Below, piece after piece: positions 6,423-13,824 of a stretch of DNA of 36,875 nt. Location of the stretch: positions 1-36,875 of the forward strand of contig JAFVTX010000044.1 in NCBI GenBank assembly GCA_017503015.1, given 5' to 3'. The notes beneath the pieces are model-generated. The model was given only the letters and a program-made list of their open reading frames with translations, ran no database searches and had not been told where the DNA came from. Source of the DNA: Fibrobacter sp. (GTDB lineage Bacteria > Fibrobacterota > Fibrobacteria > Fibrobacterales > Fibrobacteraceae). A program made the translations under genes and the position numbers. How positions within the stretch are numbered: the first letter of the stretch is position 1; each line of letters opens with the position of its first letter.

Positions 6423-7564
6423 TCCTGGACCTCGATGCCGTACTTGTTCACCTTGTAATGCATCATGCGGGGGCTTACCTGCAGGTCGCGGCCGGCGGCG
6501 CTCAGGTTCCCGTTGTTTTTGCGCAGGGCTTCCATCAGGATTTCTTTTTCGTAGGAGCGGAGCAGCGTGGAGAGCGACGCCGGACCTTCGGGAATGAGCG
6601 ACGTGCCCGAGGTAACGTCGGTCTGCAATGTGGGCGGAAGGTCGTAGGCGTTGATGCTTACGTCTGTGGTGGCGAGGCAGGCGTGCTCGATGCAGTTTTC
6701 CAGTTCACGCACGTTGCCCGGCCAGTGGTAGCTCATGAGCATGTCGATGGCGGGAGTGCTGAGCCTCTGGATTTTCTTGCCGTATTTCAGGTTCATCTTG
6801 GCGATGAAATGGTCTGCCAAAAGCAGAATGTCCGTTTTGCGTTGGGACAGTTCCGGCAGCTTGATCTGGAAAATGTTCAGGCGGTAGTAGAGGTCTTCGC
6901 GGAAAAGCCCCTGCTGCATCAGGGTTTCAAGGTCCTTGCCGGTGCTGGCGATAATCCGGATGTTTGCGTTTTGGAAAATGTTGCTCCCCAGGCGGCTGAA
7001 GCGCCGGTCTTGCAGGAACTGCAAAAGCTTGGTCTGTGCGGCAAGGGGCAGGGAGCCGACCTCGTCTATAAAAAGGGTGCCGCCGTTTGCCTGCTCCGCC
7101 TTGCCCAGGTGGCGTGCGGTGGCGCCAGTGAAGGCGCCCCTTTCGTAGCCGAACAGTTCGCTTTCCAGGGAGTTGAATCCTTCGCCTGCGTTCAGGGAAT
7201 CGCAGTTCAAGATGACGAAGGGCCCGCTCGCCCTTTCGGACATGCGGTGCAAAGTCCTTGCGGTGTGTTCCTTGCCGGTACCTGCCGCCCCGCGGATAAG
7301 CACCACGGCGTCGCTACTTGCGATTTGTCGCACCTGCCGCTCCACCTCTTGCATGGCGCGGGTGTTTCCGATGAGATCGCTGGGAGTGCCGCCCATGAGG
7401 TCCCGAAGTTCCTGGAATTTCTTCTGGTACCCCGTTTCGACGGCGGCGAAATTGTTGCCGATGATTTCTTGCAACCTTTGCCTCAGGCGGTCCTTGGCAC
7501 GGATATGGTGCAGGGCGTCGTCGATTTGGCGCAGGGCTTCTGTTTGCAGGGCGTTGAATTCCAT
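6419..7564 (-). CDS. Sigma54-dependent transcriptional activator (NtrC/NifA type, no recognised sensor domain)
   Basis: An AAA+ enhancer-binding protein that remodels sigma54-RNA polymerase. It is 381 aa: a short N-terminal helical region (1-60) with no receiver, PAS or GAF domain that I recognise; an AAA+ domain with Walker A GAAGTGKE (92-99, unusual Ala where Glu is common), the sigma54-contact loop GAFTGA (143-148), Walker B TLFIDEVG (163-170), an arginine-finger region FREDLYYRLN and WPGNVRELEN; and a Fis-type HTH (about 350-375). It is divergent from glnN across 172 bp containing a sigma54-like promoter and twin palindromes, so it probably controls glutamine synthetase, perhaps also itself. 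The ATG at 7564 has a -7 box only 5 bp upstream and no SD. The downstream methyltransferase overlaps it by ATGA. Confidence 0.92.
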   Translation of the reverse strand: MEFNALQTEALRQIDDALHHIRAKDRLRQRLQEIIGNNFAAVETGYQKKFQELRDLMGGTPSDLIGNTRAMQEVERQVRQIASSDAVVLIRGAAGTGKEHTARTLHRMSERASGPFVILNCDSLNAGEGFNSLESELFGYERGAFTGATARHLGKAEQANGGTLFIDEVGSLPLAAQTKLLQFLQDRRFSRLGSNIFQNANIRIIASTGKDLETLMQQGLFREDLYYRLNIFQIKLPELSQRKTDILLLADHFIAKMNLKYGKKIQRLSTPAIDMLMSYHWPGNVRELENCIEHACLATTDVSINAYDLPPTLQTDVTSGTSLIPEGPASLSTLLRSYEKEILMEALRKNNGNLSAAGRDLQVSPRMMHYKVNKYGIEVQE

Positions 7565-7569
7565 GGCCT

Positions 7570-7576
7570 AAATATA
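7570..7576 (-). promoter_or_regulatory. Putative -7 box of the sigma54 activator gene
   Basis: On the minus strand this reads TATATTT, then AGGCC and the ATG. The 5-bp gap predicts a leaderless transcript. Confidence 0.55.
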
Positions 7577-7606
7577 GGATTGTTAGGCGGTTTGTTTTGT
7601 CTGTGC

Positions 7607-7651
7607 TTTACAAATATGTAATAATAGTGATGAATTTTACAAAAATGTAAA
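7607..7651. promoter_or_regulatory. Twin palindromes TTTACA-N4-TGTAAA (candidate activator sites)
   Basis: Site 1 at 7607-7622 is TTTACA-N4-TGTAAT and site 2 at 7636-7651 is a perfect TTTACA-N4-TGTAAA. They start 29 bp apart, close to three helical turns, so a dimeric regulator would bind the same face of the DNA. They lie between the activator gene and its likely target glnN. The binding protein is inferred from position. Confidence 0.6.
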
Positions 7652-7657
7652 GAAAAC

Positions 7658-7671
7658 GGCCTGAAATTTGC
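7658..7671 (+). promoter_or_regulatory. Putative sigma54 (-24/-12) promoter of glnN
   Basis: GGCCTGAAATTTGC has GG and GC with exactly 10 bp between, and a TTGC at the -12 side as in the RpoN consensus. The predicted start is near 7683, about 54 bp before the glnN ATG. Confidence 0.55.
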
Positions 7672-7705
7672 CATTTTTTCACTGCAAAGCTACCGTTCTC
7701 CTTTC

Positions 7706-7712
7706 TATTTTT
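7706..7712 (+). promoter_or_regulatory. Putative housekeeping -7 box of glnN
   Basis: TATTTTT followed by CG fits TAnnTTTG. A good SD (AAAAGGA, 7724-7730) follows 7 bp before ATG 7737. With the sigma54 site upstream, glnN may have two promoters. Confidence 0.45.
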
Positions 7713-7736
7713 CGCCCCGAAACAAAAGGACGCACT

Positions 7737-9854
7737 ATGATCAGCACCCGCAAGAATACCGTCAACGATATCGCTTCGGCACCTGCCACCCCCATCAAGC
7801 CCGCCACGCCGGCAAATATCGACTATTTCGGCGAGGACGTGTTCAATGCCCGGGCCATGCGGAACTACCTTTCCAAGGAAACCTGTGAAAAGCTTTTGGC
7901 CACCATTGACGAGGGCGCTCCCCTGGACGCCAACATCGCAAGCGAAGTGGCCCATGCCATGAAGCGCTGGGCCCTGGACCGTGGAGCTACCCACTTTACC
8001 CACTGGTTCCAGCCCCTTACCGGCTCTACCGCCGAAAAGCACGATTCCTTCTTGGAACTGGAAGAAGGCAAGCCCATCATGGTGTTCAGCGGCAAGAACC
8101 TGATTGTGGGGGAGCCGGACGCCTCCAGTTTCCCCAGCGGGGGCCTGCGCTCTACCTTCGAGGCCCGGGGATACACCGCCTGGGACCCCACCAGTCCCGC
8201 TTTTATCAAGCGCCACGGTAACGGTGCGACCCTTTGTATTCCCACGGCGTTCTGCAGCTATACCGGCGAGGCCCTGGACAAGAAAACGCCCCTGCTCCGC
8301 AGCTTGCAGGCCCTTTCCAAGTCCACCCGTAGGCTCATGACCTGTTTTAAGGCGAGCCCCAAGAAGACCACCGTGACTCTTGGCGCCGAGCAGGAATATT
8401 TCTTGATCGACAAGCGTTTTTACCTGCAACGGCCGGACCTGTACCAGGCGGGGCGCACTATCTTCGGGGCAACACCTGCCAAGCACCAGCAGATGGACGA
8501 CCACTACTTCGGTAGCATTCCCACCCGCATCTTGAACTTTATGAACGATGTGGAAATGGAACTGTGGAAGCTTGGAATTCCGGCCAAGACCCGCCACAAC
8601 GAGGTGGCTCCTGCCCAGTTCGAACTGGCTCCCATCTTTGAAGAGGTGAACCTGGCCTGCGACCACAACATGCAGATTATGGAAGTGCTCCGTCAGGTGG
8701 CAGACAGGCACGGGCTGGTTTGCCTGCTCCACGAGAAGCCCTTTGCCGGCGTGAACGGTTCGGGCAAGCACAACAATTGGAGCATTACTTATGGTCATGG
8801 AAACTTGCTGAACCCCGGCAAGGACCCGCACCAGAATGCGGTTTTCTTGACGGCTCTCTGCGCCGTGATTTATGCGGTGGATACCCACGCCGACCTGCTC
8901 CGCATGACGGTGGCGGGAGCGGGTAACGACCATCGTCTGGGGGCCAACGAGGCACCTCCGGCGATTATGTCTATCTACCTTGGTGACCAGCTGATGGATG
9001 TCATCGACCAGCTGGAACAGGGCGTGCCCAAGTCCAGCAAGCAGGCGGGTGCCATGCGGATTGGCGCAGACGCCTTGCCGCCGCTCCCTCGGGACGCTAC
9101 CGACCGTAACCGCACGAGTCCCTTCGCCTTTACGGGAAACAAGTTCGAATTCCGCGCTCCGGGCTCTAGCCAGAGCTGTTCCGAACCCAACGTGGTGCTG
9201 AACACCATCGTGGCCGAAGCTTTTGACATGATTGCGGAACAGCTGGAAAAATTGGACGAGAAGAATTTCCACACGGGACTGCAGAAGATTCTCCAGAAAA
9301 TCGTGAAGGAACACAAGCGCGTAATCTTCAACGGCAACGGCTATACCGACGAATGGATTGCCGAAGCGGAACGTCGAGGACTCCCCAACATCAAGACCTC
9401 CATGGAAGCCATGAAGGCCCTGGTGAAAGACGAGAATGTGGCCCTGTTCGAAAAATACGGCGTGATGAACCGTCGCGAGATGGAATCCCGCTACGAAGTG
9501 AACGTGGAGGATTTCCACAAGCGTATCCATATCGAAGGGGAAATCGCCCGTGACCTGGCAAAGAACGTGATTTTGCCCAAGGTGGTGGATTCTTACTCCA
9601 ATGCCCTCAAGACAAACGAAATGGCCCTGAACCAAGGATTCCCTGGCTTGGATGGTTACGCCAAGGCTCTGGGCGAAGGTTCTTCGAAACTGATGGCCGC
9701 CATTGCCAAGATGGAAGCCTGCCTGGAGAAGGACCACGAGGATATTCTCGACGCCATGGCGGAACTTCGCGGCGTGGTGGACGCCCTGGAAAAAATCGTG
9801 CCCGACGACTGCTGGCCCCTGCCCAAGTACAGGGAAATGCTGTTCATTTACTAA
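7737..9854 (+). CDS. glnN: Type III glutamine synthetase
   Basis: Makes glutamine from glutamate, ammonia and ATP; the main ammonia-assimilating reaction in the cytoplasm. At 705 aa it has the length of GSIII (about 700-730) and is much longer than GSI (about 470). Visible motifs are the GSIII N-terminal block around VFNARAMRNYL, the active-site strand GAEQEYFLID (about 212-221), the NGSGKHNNWS loop (about 339-348), GAGNDHRLGANEAPPAI, and the ATP/glutamate-binding NRTSPFAFTGNKFEFRAPG (about 457-475). The ATG at 7737 is set by the SD AAAAGGA 7 bp upstream. The divergent sigma54 activator and the sigma54-like promoter suggest nitrogen-responsive control. No terminator is obvious behind it; a C-tract follows. 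Confidence 0.96.
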   Translation: MISTRKNTVNDIASAPATPIKPATPANIDYFGEDVFNARAMRNYLSKETCEKLLATIDEGAPLDANIASEVAHAMKRWALDRGATHFTHWFQPLTGSTAEKHDSFLELEEGKPIMVFSGKNLIVGEPDASSFPSGGLRSTFEARGYTAWDPTSPAFIKRHGNGATLCIPTAFCSYTGEALDKKTPLLRSLQALSKSTRRLMTCFKASPKKTTVTLGAEQEYFLIDKRFYLQRPDLYQAGRTIFGATPAKHQQMDDHYFGSIPTRILNFMNDVEMELWKLGIPAKTRHNEVAPAQFELAPIFEEVNLACDHNMQIMEVLRQVADRHGLVCLLHEKPFAGVNGSGKHNNWSITYGHGNLLNPGKDPHQNAVFLTALCAVIYAVDTHADLLRMTVAGAGNDHRLGANEAPPAIMSIYLGDQLMDVIDQLEQGVPKSSKQAGAMRIGADALPPLPRDATDRNRTSPFAFTGNKFEFRAPGSSQSCSEPNVVLNTIVAEAFDMIAEQLEKLDEKNFHTGLQKILQKIVKEHKRVIFNGNGYTDEWIAEAERRGLPNIKTSMEAMKALVKDENVALFEKYGVMNRREMESRYEVNVEDFHKRIHIEGEIARDLAKNVILPKVVDSYSNALKTNEMALNQGFPGLDGYAKALGEGSSKLMAAIAKMEACLEKDHEDILDAMAELRGVVDALEKIVPDDCWPLPKYREMLFIY

Positions 9855-9890
9855 ACCATTTACGTACAAAAAAACACCCGAGGTCCACTG

Positions 9891-9937
9891 CCCCCCCCCT
9901 TTTTCTATATTCATTGTTATATTTAGAGGGGGGGGGG
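9891..9937 (+). promoter_or_regulatory. Promoter region bracketed by C9 and G10 homopolymer tracts
   Basis: Nine C (9891-9899) and ten G (9928-9937) flank a 28-bp AT-rich segment containing TATATTT (9918-9924), a -7 box match. The tracts are complementary and could pair in RNA or DNA; each is also prone to slipped-strand length change. An SD (AAAAGGAG, 9948-9955) and ATG 9962 follow. Confidence 0.65.
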
Positions 9938-9961
9938 TATTCCCCTCAAAAGGAGAAAACT

Positions 9962-11344
9962 ATGAAAAAACTACTATGGACATCGGCTATTGCCCTGACG
10001 GCCGTGGCGTGCCTTACCGCCTGTGATGAAAGCACCAGCGGTGCCTCTAATGCCATCGCATCCTACAAGACAGAAACAGCCCTTCCGGACACCTGCGAGA
10101 TGGAAGTGGCCAAGGCTGGCGACACCTACTTCGCCTGCTTTGAGAATAAGTGGGTGGAAGTTACGGACTCCGCCACCGTGGAACAGTTCAAGGAAGGCCT
10201 TGACGAGGACGAAATCAAGGGAAAACTTGAAGAACTGGAAGACCTACTGAAGCCCACCACGCCGGCTAAGCCCAAGTCCTCCAGTAGTAAGAAGACGGAC
10301 GAGGATGTGGAGTCCAGCGACAGCGAAGAGCCCGAAAGTTCCGCCAGCGAAGAAGAATGCACTGGCCGCCGCTGCAAGACCGACAATTCTAGTAGCTCCA
10401 AGAAGAGTAACGGTGGAAACGGTGGCTCTAGTGAAGGTGATGAAGGCGGCGAAGGAAGCTCTCCGTCTAGTGCCGAAAGCAGTTCTCCCTCCAGTACTGA
10501 ATCTAGCTCTCCGTCCAGTGCCGAAAGCAGTTCTCCCTCCAGTACTGAATCTAGCTCTCCGTCCAGTGCCGAAAGCAGTTCTCCCTCCAGCACTGAATCT
10601 AGCTCTCCGTCTAGCGCTAACTCCAGCGTGAGCAAATGTGGCGGCGTTGTCTACGATCCCGAAACTCAGTCCTGCGTTGGCACAGTAATCAAGGACAAGT
10701 GTGGCGATAATCTTTATACACACCAGCAAAACTGGGCCTGTGTTGACGAAAACTACTACTATATCGATCCGACAGACGAAGATTTTGTCTATGTTGTCGA
10801 CAAGAGAGACGGCAACGCCTACAGAGTCTTAATGGGACCGGATAAGGTTGTTTGGATGGCCGAAAACCTGCGGTATGATAATGGCTCAACTAGGTGTTAT
10901 TCAGGAGATAATTCCGAGTGCTCGTTGTATGGCAGAGCCTATACTTGGACAGATGCGGCCGGTAGTATTTGTCCAGATGGTTGGCATACCGCGAGTGGCG
11001 ACGAATGGATTAATCTTGTTTCGGCAGCTGGAACAACAACAAAAGAATCTTTACAAAATCTCAGATCCACAAGCGGATGGCGTGAGGGCTATAATGGCAA
11101 TGATGAATTCGGATTCAATATGTTGGAAATTAATTTCCGAGATAATTCAAGTGGAAGCCGTATTTCTGGGGCGTATTTCTGGTCGTCAGATGAAGTTGGA
11201 ACAGCATACGGAAACAATGTCACCATATATGAAGACTTTAATTGGAATGGTGCCGATGGAGGCGATTCAAAAACACGCTATGCCTCTGTCCGTTGCGTAA
11301 TGGATGACGCCACCTTGCCCAAGTTGGCGAAAGCTCTTGACTAA
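9962..11344 (+). CDS. Lipoprotein with Ser-rich linker and Fibrobacter succinogenes major paralogous domain
   Basis: This 460-aa predicted surface lipoprotein starts with a signal peptide ending LTAC, so Cys21 is the likely lipidated residue. After a short charged region comes a long low-complexity linker (about 100-225) rich in Ser, Glu and Pro, including 16-residue repeats of the SSPSSAES/SSPSSTES type. The C-terminal part (about 280-450) carries WMAENLRYD, CSLYGRAYTW, CPDGWHTASGDEW, GYFWSSDE-like AYFWSSDE and YASVRCVMD. These are hallmarks of the Fib_succ_major (TIGR02145) domain, a large family in Fibrobacter related to C-type-lectin-like/FGE folds; its function is unknown. SD AAAAGGAG and ATG 9962 fix the start. 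A strong terminator follows. Confidence 0.9.
   Translation: MKKLLWTSAIALTAVACLTACDESTSGASNAIASYKTETALPDTCEMEVAKAGDTYFACFENKWVEVTDSATVEQFKEGLDEDEIKGKLEELEDLLKPTTPAKPKSSSSKKTDEDVESSDSEEPESSASEEECTGRRCKTDNSSSSKKSNGGNGGSSEGDEGGEGSSPSSAESSSPSSTESSSPSSAESSSPSSTESSSPSSAESSSPSSTESSSPSSANSSVSKCGGVVYDPETQSCVGTVIKDKCGDNLYTHQQNWACVDENYYYIDPTDEDFVYVVDKRDGNAYRVLMGPDKVVWMAENLRYDNGSTRCYSGDNSECSLYGRAYTWTDAAGSICPDGWHTASGDEWINLVSAAGTTTKESLQNLRSTSGWREGYNGNDEFGFNMLEINFRDNSSGSRISGAYFWSSDEVGTAYGNNVTIYEDFNWNGADGGDSKTRYASVRCVMDDATLPKLAKALD
10457..10624 (+). repeat. 48-bp in-frame tandem repeat (3.5 copies) coding the Ser-rich linker
   Basis: Near-identical units run 10457-10504, 10505-10552 and 10553-10600, and a half unit follows. 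Each codes 16 residues of the SSSPSSAES / SSSPSSTES pattern. Copy number could vary by recombination without shifting frame. Confidence 0.9.
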
Positions 11345-11371
11345 TTAATTCCGTATCGTTTGGACATTCAC

Positions 11372-11405
11372 GCCCGAGGTTCTCTGAACCCCGGGCTTTT
11401 GTTTT
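11372..11405 (+). terminator. Rho-independent terminator
   Basis: GCCCGAGGTTC (11372-11382) pairs with GAACCCCGGGC (11386-11396) with one mismatch, followed by TTTTGTTTT. Confidence 0.85.
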
Positions 11406-11437
11406 GTTCGTGCCACGAGCCCCACACTTCTAATTAC

Positions 11438-11444
11438 TACATTT
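11438..11444 (+). promoter_or_regulatory. Putative -7 box of the 14-residue-repeat gene
   Basis: TACATTT fits TAnnTTT. It lies 24 bp before ATG 11469, with an SD (AAGGGGG, 11458-11464) between. Confidence 0.5.
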
Positions 11445-11468
11445 CCCTACTACTACCAAGGGGGCTTT

Positions 11469-11822
11469 ATGCAAGATGCTGAACGGGATAAACGCATATC
11501 CGAACTTGTGAAAAAGGACCAGGAGCACGACGCCCGCCTGGATGCCCAGGCCGAAAAGGATTACGAGCACGACCTGCGTATCGATTCCCTCTACAGCAAG
11601 GAACGGGAGCAGGAATTCAAGATCAAGGCCCAGGTGGCAAAGGACGCGGAACACGATTTCCGCCTGAATTCCGTGGACTCCAAGAACGAGGAGCAGGATT
11701 CGGAACTGCACCGCCAGTCCATCAAGGACCGGGAGCACGATGCCCGTCTGGAAACCCTGGAAAAGCTTTATGCGGACTTGGCCGCCCGTGTGGAATTTCT
11801 GGAATCGCAACTGAAGAAATAG
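11469..11822 (+). CDS. Small coiled-coil protein built of 14-residue repeats
   Basis: This 117-aa protein is not recognised. From about residue 14 it is six tandem 14-residue repeats with the pattern xxKDxEHDxRLDxx, for example VKKDQEHDARLDAQ, AEKDYEHDLRIDSL and SIKDREHDARLETL. It then ends in a short leucine-zipper-like helix (LYADLAARVEFLESQL). Fourteen residues equal two heptads, so a long continuous amphipathic helix or coiled coil is likely. It has no signal peptide, so it is presumably cytoplasmic. SD AAGGGGG and a -7 box precede it. It ends 4 bp before the EF-G-like gene, suggesting one operon; a link to translation is only suggested by that. Confidence 0.75.
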   Translation: MQDAERDKRISELVKKDQEHDARLDAQAEKDYEHDLRIDSLYSKEREQEFKIKAQVAKDAEHDFRLNSVDSKNEEQDSELHRQSIKDREHDARLETLEKLYADLAARVEFLESQLKK

Positions 11823-11826
11823 GCCC

Positions 11827-13824
11827 ATGTCGCAGCCAGTCCGGAACATCGCCATCCTTGCCCATGTGGATGCGGGTAAGACCACCTTGTCGGAACGGAT
11901 TCTGTTCACGGCAGGGGAGGTGCGTCGTCCGGGCCGCGTAGAAGAAGGCCTTGCCACCATGGACTACCTGCCCGAAGAAAAGGACAGGGGCATCACTATC
12001 GAAAGTGGCGTGGCCCACTTTGAGTGGAAGGATACCTGGTTCAATTTTATCGATACGCCGGGTCACGTGGATTTTGGCGCCGAGGTGGACACGGCCCTCA
12101 CGGCGGTGGAAGGGGCGATTCTTGTGGTGAGTGCCGCCAGCGGTGTAGAGACCCAGACGGTGGCCGCTTTCAAGAAACTTCGGGAGGCGGGCGTTCGGAC
12201 GATTTTGTTCGTGAACAAGCTGGACAATCCCGACTATTCCCTGGACGAAACCCTTATCAACATCGAAGAGGTTCTGGGTGTGCGTCCGGTGCTCATGACG
12301 CTGCCGGAATATCGGGACGGCAAGATGACCGGCGTGCTGGACGTGCTGAGCAAAAGCCGCCTGGAACATTCCGCTACCGGCGAAGAGGTGGTGGACGAAG
12401 GCTGGAACGTGGATGACGGTTGGGACCAGGCCCACGACCTGAAAAAGCACTACGCCGAGGCGGTGGAATTTGCCAGCAATTTTGACGACGAGATTTTGAA
12501 GCTTGCCATGGAAGGTAAGCCTGTGCCGGCGAAGATTCTCTTGCGGGGGCTGAAAGCCCTGGCGGCAAGCGACGATTACGCCCTGTGCTACGCAGGCTCT
12601 GCCATGGAAGGTTTTGGCGTGCGAAGCCTCACGACGGCGCTGACTTTCTTTTTGCCAGAGGTGCCCGCCTTTGACAAGGGCGAACTGGGTCAGGTGATAC
12701 GCCTCCGGTATTTCAAGGGCGTGGGGGAGATTTCCATATTCCGCAGCCACACGGATTTGGAGCGCAAGGCGTGGCCTGCTGGCTTTGAGTTTTCGAGACT
12801 GAAGGCGAACCTGCTGGTGCCTGTAGATGAAATCCGCGCAGGCGATATTTACGCTATGCGCACCCCTTTCGAGACGGAACTGGGAGAGGTGATTTATTTA
12901 GACGAGAGACGAGAGACGAGAGACGAGAGAAGTGAGGCGCGAGGCACGAACCCCGAGCCTCGAACCTCGAACCCCGAGCCTCGAACCTCCATCCGCGACA
13001 AATATCAGCCCCTTTTGCAGACCCGCGTGGAGTGCCTGGGTTCCGAGGATTTTTTGCATGTGGACAAGAGCCTGAATATGCTTGGCCGTATGGACCCCAG
13101 TTTCCGCGTCCAGAAGGATGACGGCGGTTTCTGGTACTTGCATACCGTAGGCGAGGTGCAGTTGGACGTGCTGCTTTCGCGCCTGAAACGGGAATTCGGT
13201 TGCGAAGTGAAGGCCGGAAGCCCCGAGGTGCGCTGGCAAGAGCGTTTATGTCGTGAGGTGGGTCCTGTGGAAAATTCGTTCCAGCTTGGGCCCCACAAGA
13301 TTTCTATCAAGCTTTCGGCGACGCCTTTGGAAGGCGATGCCCATGATATACGTCTTTCTGCGGAATTTTTGGAGACTGCTCCCCGTGAGATTCTGGCCGG
13401 TGTCCGCTCGGCCCTGCTGGAATCTGCCGAAGTCGGGATTCTCGGCAAGGGAGCGCTGGTAGGCGTGCGCTTTGAGGTCCACGAGTTCACCTGGACCGAG
13501 GGAGCGCTCCCGCCTATGATCAAGAAGGCCTGCGCCGATGCAGTTACAAAGCTGATCAAGCCCGCCGATGTGGAACTTTACGAGCCCATCATGGAGCTTT
13601 CTCTGGAATGCCCCGTGAACTTTGCAGGTCTTGTGACCGGTGATATCCAGTCACGGGACGGCAAGGTGAAAGAAATCGGCGGCGACGGCAAGACCCATTT
13701 TTTGAAGGCGGAAGTCCCGCTGCGAAAAATTTTCGGCTATGCTACCGGCGTGCGGAGCATCAGCAAGGGCACTGCCCTTTACAGCATGAAGTTGCTGGGG
13801 TATAAGCAAATAGGGAAGGCGTAG
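11827..13824 (+). CDS. EF-G-like translational GTPase (paralogue)
   Basis: This 665-aa cytoplasmic GTPase resembles EF-G and ribosomal-protection factors. G1 is AHVDAGKTT (about 12-20), switch I ends DRGITIES (about 56-63), G3 is DTPGHVDF (about 76-83) and G4 is NKLD (about 130-133). Domain II (about 280-355) carries RLRYFKGVGEISIF; domains III-V follow, with GEVQLDVLLSRLKREF and the terminal LRKIFGYATGVRSISKGTALYSM. G1 has Val where classical EF-G usually has Ile, as in TetM-type factors, but nothing else makes it a resistance gene. Residues about 359-388 (RRETRDERSEARG then two NPEPRTS) are a translated heptamer array in the domain II-III linker, so that segment is probably disordered. It follows the 14-residue-repeat gene by 4 bp and ends in TAG. 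Confidence 0.85.
   Translation: MSQPVRNIAILAHVDAGKTTLSERILFTAGEVRRPGRVEEGLATMDYLPEEKDRGITIESGVAHFEWKDTWFNFIDTPGHVDFGAEVDTALTAVEGAILVVSAASGVETQTVAAFKKLREAGVRTILFVNKLDNPDYSLDETLINIEEVLGVRPVLMTLPEYRDGKMTGVLDVLSKSRLEHSATGEEVVDEGWNVDDGWDQAHDLKKHYAEAVEFASNFDDEILKLAMEGKPVPAKILLRGLKALAASDDYALCYAGSAMEGFGVRSLTTALTFFLPEVPAFDKGELGQVIRLRYFKGVGEISIFRSHTDLERKAWPAGFEFSRLKANLLVPVDEIRAGDIYAMRTPFETELGEVIYLDERRETRDERSEARGTNPEPRTSNPEPRTSIRDKYQPLLQTRVECLGSEDFLHVDKSLNMLGRMDPSFRVQKDDGGFWYLHTVGEVQLDVLLSRLKREFGCEVKAGSPEVRWQERLCREVGPVENSFQLGPHKISIKLSATPLEGDAHDIRLSAEFLETAPREILAGVRSALLESAEVGILGKGALVGVRFEVHEFTWTEGALPPMIKKACADAVTKLIKPADVELYEPIMELSLECPVNFAGLVTGDIQSRDGKVKEIGGDGKTHFLKAEVPLRKIFGYATGVRSISKGTALYSMKLLGYKQIGKA
12901..12991 (+). 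repeat. Coding heptamer array, 13 units in exact register
   Basis: Thirteen successive 7-bp units fill 91 bp: four GACGAGA, then degenerate units such as GGCGCGA, ACCCCGA and GCCTCGA. Most end in GA. The array lies inside the EF-G-like gene and is read without frameshift. Confidence 0.85.

Follow-up and report, generated by a model that had tools for sequence, protein, structure and literature searches.

Phase variation through slippage in homopolymer tracts is best known from host-adapted pathogens. In Neisseria meningitidis, the promoter of opc contains a poly-C tract in which 11 or 12 Cs result in different expression (PMC3447861), and in Treponema pallidum, poly-G tracts of 8 to 10 bases are found close to the promoters of the surface genes tprL, tprE/G/J and tp0126 (PMC7864442). 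A literature search that combined Fibrobacter with phase variation returned nothing on this genus, judged by title, and a search for transcription start sites in Fibrobacter found no paper. So could tracts of this kind control the expression of a surface gene in Fibrobacter as well?

The window, that is, the whole stretch of DNA that we analyzed, is contig C44 (36,875 bases) of a 2.96-Mb Fibrobacter genome (G000, hereinafter the own genome), for which all genome-wide counts were obtained from pattern searches together with short stretches of sequence; all window features described here lie on the + strand. The only runs of at least seven Gs or Cs within the window are a C9 tract (9891-9899) and a G10 tract (9928-9937), one located at a promoter and the other in a leader. 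The first-pass annotation described these tracts as flanking the -7 box of a surface-lipoprotein gene, and so they do: the box, TATATTC (9906-9912), which aligns with the TATATT boxes of orthologues and paralogues, lies between them. The intertract sequence has an exact match in Fibrobacter sp. UBA4375, the sole one in an exact search of named genome contigs. Because both genomes of the window type may be metagenome assemblies, the tract lengths have to be taken as consensus values.

The gene downstream of the tracts (9962-11344) encodes a 460-aa lipoprotein with a signal peptide and a lipobox evident in the translation, and with a FISUMP domain that scores 136.7 bits against TIGR02145 (E = 1.3e-39), far above the curated cut-off of 41.65 bits, which makes the protein a member of this family. 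The family is large, with 81 domain matches in the own genome. The lipoprotein gene sits downstream of glnA, the gene for type III glutamine synthetase (7668-9854, delimited as the longest ORF, so that a later ATG may be the true start; Pfam GSIII_N, 6.4e-76, and Gln-synt_C-ter, 8.9e-40). On the far side, the slot is bounded by a 117-aa gene (11469-11822) whose product is 96-100% identical in each relative where it was found and has no match in family profile searches; an Rfam search of positions 7000-12000 yielded no match. This slot (9855-11468), which glnA delimits on the other side, is empty in G002, G050, G061, G016 and G069; the window, G060 and G028 have a FISUMP gene there on the same strand, and G022, and probably also G076, a different FISUMP gene on the opposite strand. 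It is a site of gene turnover, which duplicated terminators flank in G028. The G028 gene resembles that of the window at the N-terminus and diverges in the FISUMP domain (73% identity over the N-terminal 110 residues but only 33% in the domain), so that, as far as this pair of sequences goes, the protein consists of a constant front and an exchangeable back.

The promoter of the lipoprotein gene is credible on pattern statistics, since the own genome contains 20 instances of TATATT(T/C)...AAGGAG...ATG at suitable distances and none of the reversed pattern. Beyond the -7 box, no conserved -35/-33 element was detected among 19 promoter rows of the own genome. From the usual spacing, transcription would be expected to start near 9918, downstream of the C tract and upstream of the G tract. 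A second TATATTT (9918-9924), absent from the first-pass annotation and common to the window and G060 only, is a possible cryptic promoter which would start transcription inside the G tract. Genus-wide, the arrangement TATATT-G7-ATG was retrieved in 24 rows, against 12 for the control, many of these cases being poly-G at the place of the Shine-Dalgarno (SD) sequence, and this signal is too weak when taken alone.

The C tract stands where the 3' arm of the terminator on the glnA side used to be, as indicated by the gap-free alignment of ACCCGAGGTCCACTG-C9-T5 in the window (9876-9904) with ACCCGAGGTTCACTG-AACCCCGGG-T5 in G028. The C block likewise aligns with the terminator arm of G002 without gaps. 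In G028, glnA is followed by ACCCGAGGTTCACTG-AACCCCGGG-TTTTT-CTATATT, the FISUMP gene, another copy of this terminator and, last, the 117-aa gene; in G002, where the FISUMP gene is missing, only one terminator separates glnA from the 117-aa gene. In the window and G060, ACCCGAGGTCCACTG is followed by C9T5 or C8T6, respectively, and then by CTATATT, and in both the second terminator is intact (in the window, CCCGAGGTTCTCTGAACCCCGGG after the lipoprotein gene, 11373-11395). Put another way, the 3' arm that reads AACCCCGGG in the relatives reads CCCCCCCCC in the window. The predicted folding energy of the terminator hairpin is -13.9 kcal/mol in G028 and G002 and -1.1 kcal/mol in the window; the stable, G+C-rich hairpin with a T run that characterizes an intrinsic terminator is present in the former two and missing in the window. 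The T run itself (9900-9904) belongs to the terminator and to the promoter alike, and such fusions of a terminator T run with a -7 box occur at nine sites elsewhere in the genus, compared to none for the reversed arrangement. Measured from CTG through the T run, the block spans 14 nt in all four orthologous loci (window, G060, G028 and G002), and the tract therefore changed by substitution, not by slippage; the difference between C9 and C8, as read from the alignment, is a single C/T substitution that leaves the length of the block as it was. The view of the C tract as a length-variable site is not supported.

As for the G tract, it forms the 5' arm of a leader hairpin, GAGGGG...CCCCTC (9926-9947), that folds to -13.5 kcal/mol and lies directly before the SD sequence AAAAGGAG (9948-9955), in which AGGAG is invariant across ten aligned leaders. 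The pattern GGGG-N-CCCC-AAAAGGAG is found at 17 distinct sites in the genus, against five in the reversed control, and the longest G run among these is that of the window; because all the others have only G4-G6, the long G tract cannot be considered conserved. Further paralogues build the leader stem from other letters (GGATT/AATCC or GATTG/CAATC). Given that a single leader folds no better than its dinucleotide shuffles, the argument for the hairpin comes from its recurrence across genes and not from energy; in the family of the window, Fisher's test gives p = 2.5e-4, a value obtained with mononucleotide shuffles and with sequences that are related to one another. The broader idea that every gene with this promoter carries a leader hairpin is not supported (p = 0.41 for the other genes).

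In the sister species, six Gs and a T stand in place of the ten Gs of the window, in DNA that is otherwise about 95% identical. Across 15 kb aligned with the sister (34 indel events and 541 mismatches), only one other homopolymer of at least five bases differs in length, by a single base. The first-pass annotation is therefore correct in that the G tract belongs to the promoter-to-SD leader and differs in length between sister species, and constancy in relatives, one part of its own refuting condition, comes out differently for the two tracts, with the G tract variable (G10 against G6 in a single sister species) and the C block fixed. The functional effect that it attributed to the length of the G tract is not borne out in silico: from G4 to G14, the energy of the hairpin in the gene's own mRNA and the exposure of the SD sequence are predicted to remain nearly flat (-13.5 to -15.3 kcal/mol, with an SD unpaired probability of 0.55-0.60), in a calculation that leaves out the effects of the ribosome and of RNA polymerase. 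With the C block fixed, no -35 element found and the prediction for the G tract flat, neither promoter spacing nor ribosome access would be expected to respond to tract length.

The two tracts are also complementary to each other. The RNA of positions 9885-9945, which includes the C9:G10 hairpin, folds to -30.5 kcal/mol, better than all of 200 dinucleotide shuffles; as single-stranded DNA, the hairpin is weaker, at -13.2 kcal/mol, with equally good folds in 15 of 200 shuffles. The hairpin over the promoter region that was proposed at the outset can, then, form in principle, but not in the gene's own mRNA, whose inferred start is downstream of the C tract; for the two tracts to pair, the RNA must have read through from glnA, or the DNA must be single-stranded. 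In the read-through RNA, the SD sequence has a predicted exposure of 0.38, against 0.56 in RNA from the gene's own promoter. A role of the C9:G10 hairpin as a replacement terminator was considered and rejected because no T run follows it.

The scenario that best accommodates these findings is an ordinary Fibrobacter promoter with its leader, where two hairpin arms have turned into homopolymer runs, and we would put the probability of this reading at about 0.6. The FISUMP gene occupies the slot bounded by glnA and the 117-aa gene, which is empty, filled or differently filled depending on the species, and its promoter has the T run in common with the terminator on the glnA side (TTTTTCTATATT). 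Alignment and folding show that, in the lineage shared by the window species and its sister, the terminator arm has CCCCCCCCC in place of AACCCCGGG at the same length, with loss of the hairpin, which probably lets some glnA transcription enter the lipoprotein gene. In the leader, relatives have G4-G6 and the window G10, a difference that is directly seen, with growth by slippage as its presumable cause; the additional Gs would merely slide the stem or widen the loop, and the leader is therefore predicted to be much alike from G4 to G14. The region would then be a simple promoter with a leader hairpin, subject to near-neutral drift of tract length, with length variation shown for one tract, between species, and likewise predicted to be near-neutral. 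Because the runs represent the end of a decayed terminator and the stem of a leader hairpin, they do not demonstrate an on/off switch.

Drift alone, however, leaves one observation unexplained. Individually, the tracts are unremarkable: the genome has 25 runs of at least eight Gs or Cs, compared to 120 expected from composition and 41 expected from the observed run extension, and nearly all of its long tracts, by our reading of the ORFs, fall outside convincing genes. Complementary tract pairs within 60 nt are another matter, with about 0.012 expected per genome and three seen, all of them inverted and none direct. The close pairing of C9 and G10 is beyond chance. One of the three inverted pairs belongs to the repeated MKKSFQRVIATLNLFQGKQSLTIF lipoprotein family. 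The third, G9 followed by C8 at a distance of 44 nt (G000:C2:35644-35704), precedes an ORF of 457 aa. Among the G tracts of the genome, the longest is an intergenic G13 (G000:C12:1317-1329).

Among the alternatives, the one that fares best is phase variation proper, whereby slippage in the G tract, and perhaps in the C tract, would change the expression of the surface lipoprotein. The contrast of G10 with the G6 of the sister species in otherwise closely similar DNA speaks for this view, as do the membership of the lipoprotein in the large FISUMP family and the fact that promoter tracts of similar length control surface genes elsewhere (PMC3447861, PMC7864442). Against it, the length of the C tract is unchanged and the search for a -35 element that this tract might space gave none, and the G tract follows the -7 box, has a length that is predicted not to matter and measures only G4-G6 in the rest of the leader family. 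Phase variation at the window tracts is thus possible but is not the best reading, and we consider it unlikely.

Nor are such tracts special to surface genes. C10 or C8, followed by T7 and CTATATTT, precedes a leuC-like gene in G060 (C20:1702) and G022 (C60:44185), where the C8-C10 run at the promoter ends a G+C-rich element; judging by its N-terminus, the gene encodes the isopropylmalate dehydratase large subunit. In the own genome, a C10 tract is present upstream of the same gene (G000:C38:68761), with a different flank after the tract. A further lipoprotein gene, starting MMYKKISSR..., has G9 (G000:C48:11552-11560), or G7 in the sister species (G060:C45), at the SD place immediately before the ATG, where tract length could alter translation.

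The window tracts by themselves do not establish phase variation, but they lead to a stronger candidate. The lipoprotein genes that start with MKKSFQRVIATLNLFQGKQSLTIF share a signal peptide and differ in their C-terminal parts (FISUMP and others), and upstream of them lies a promoter block that occurs in many Fibrobacter species, TTTTACAAT-G(8-10)-TATGGACTTTGGCAGGGGCATTACCTATATTTAACAAGATAAACTATAGACGGGG, and that we read in 24 copies. The G tract is unbroken at G8-G10 in 23 of the 24 (G9 in 14, G8 in eight and G10 in one), the remaining copy having GGGGGAGG; the 55-nt downstream flank departs from its commonest form by no more than three bases, again in 23 of the 24 copies. The exception in the flank is C57 of the own genome, seemingly with an indel; the copies in this genome are at C8:38279, C28:58970 and C57:53278. 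The block is 95% identical in G005, whose glnA end is just 80-81% identical to that of the window, and in some species an upstream C tract pairs with the G tract of the block (CCATACCCCCCC...GGGGGGGTATGG). With a long tract maintained at 8-10 bases while the rest of the block hardly changes, this arrangement resembles a contingency locus and is a better candidate for phase variation than C9/G10 of the window; alternatively, the block could be a conserved element for protein binding or transcription start, or the product of recent interspecies transfer. The window gene is not part of the MKKSFQRV-block family, its leader and signal peptide being those of a different family. A broader hypothesis would make the G/C tracts at FISUMP promoters contingency loci in Fibrobacter, with the G8-G10 block as the established form and C9/G10 as a recent, independent instance that maybe also acts, via read-through C9:G10 pairing, as a switch that senses the origin of the transcript; we regard this combination as rather improbable.

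Yet another possibility pertains to the origin of the pair and is compatible with the preferred reading of an ordinary promoter and leader: the C tract could have been copied from the G tract by template switching within an imperfect inverted repeat, in which case the pair would be the scar of a replication hairpin over the promoter, with no regulatory role. The five differences, which are clustered, are changes to C throughout, increase the complementarity to the G tract and leave the length unchanged, fit this scheme, and so does the inverted orientation of every close tract pair in the genome. Nevertheless, a biased series of substitutions would be indistinguishable from copying, which leaves no recognizable signature because the shared part is a pure homopolymer, and we hold copying to be distinctly doubtful. 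Finally, the proposal that the C9:G10 hairpin in read-through RNA frees CCCCTC to pair with the SD sequence, which RNA from the gene's own promoter would leave open by forming the short hairpin, can draw on the exceptional stability of this hairpin, on the lower predicted SD exposure in read-through RNA and on the loss of the terminator that would block read-through, but only a small effect is predicted, just one relative has the C tract, with a much weaker long hairpin (-17.4 kcal/mol in the sister), and glnA read-through is itself only presumed, so that this mechanism is very improbable.

How does the locus, then, compare with the known systems? The overlap of terminator and promoter is of the same kind as in G028, the C71 paralogue and seven other sites in the genus, where the T run leads straight into the -7 box (GGGTTTTTCTATATT), and differs in that the window and its sister have lost the terminator hairpin to a C run. 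The leader hairpin is similar to known leader stem-loops upstream of ribosome-binding sites in being short, in ending right before the SD sequence and in being kept while its letters change; the likeness is one of position and structure, and a role in mRNA stability or translation is putative. Like the tract of opc (PMC3447861), the C tract of the window is poly-C located just upstream of the core promoter of a surface-protein gene, but the opc tract varies between variants, whereas the C block of the window is fixed in orthologues and no -35 element was found. In Treponema, the tracts are within the promoter itself, either between -35 and -10 or surrounding -10 (PMC7864442), in contrast to the G tract of the window, which is in the leader, downstream of the -7 box. 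The conserved block of other FISUMP genes comes closer to the Treponema model than this G tract does; the hypothesis that its tract switches expression can be put to test on existing metagenome reads and, if true, would show how a fibre-degrading gut bacterium diversifies its surface.
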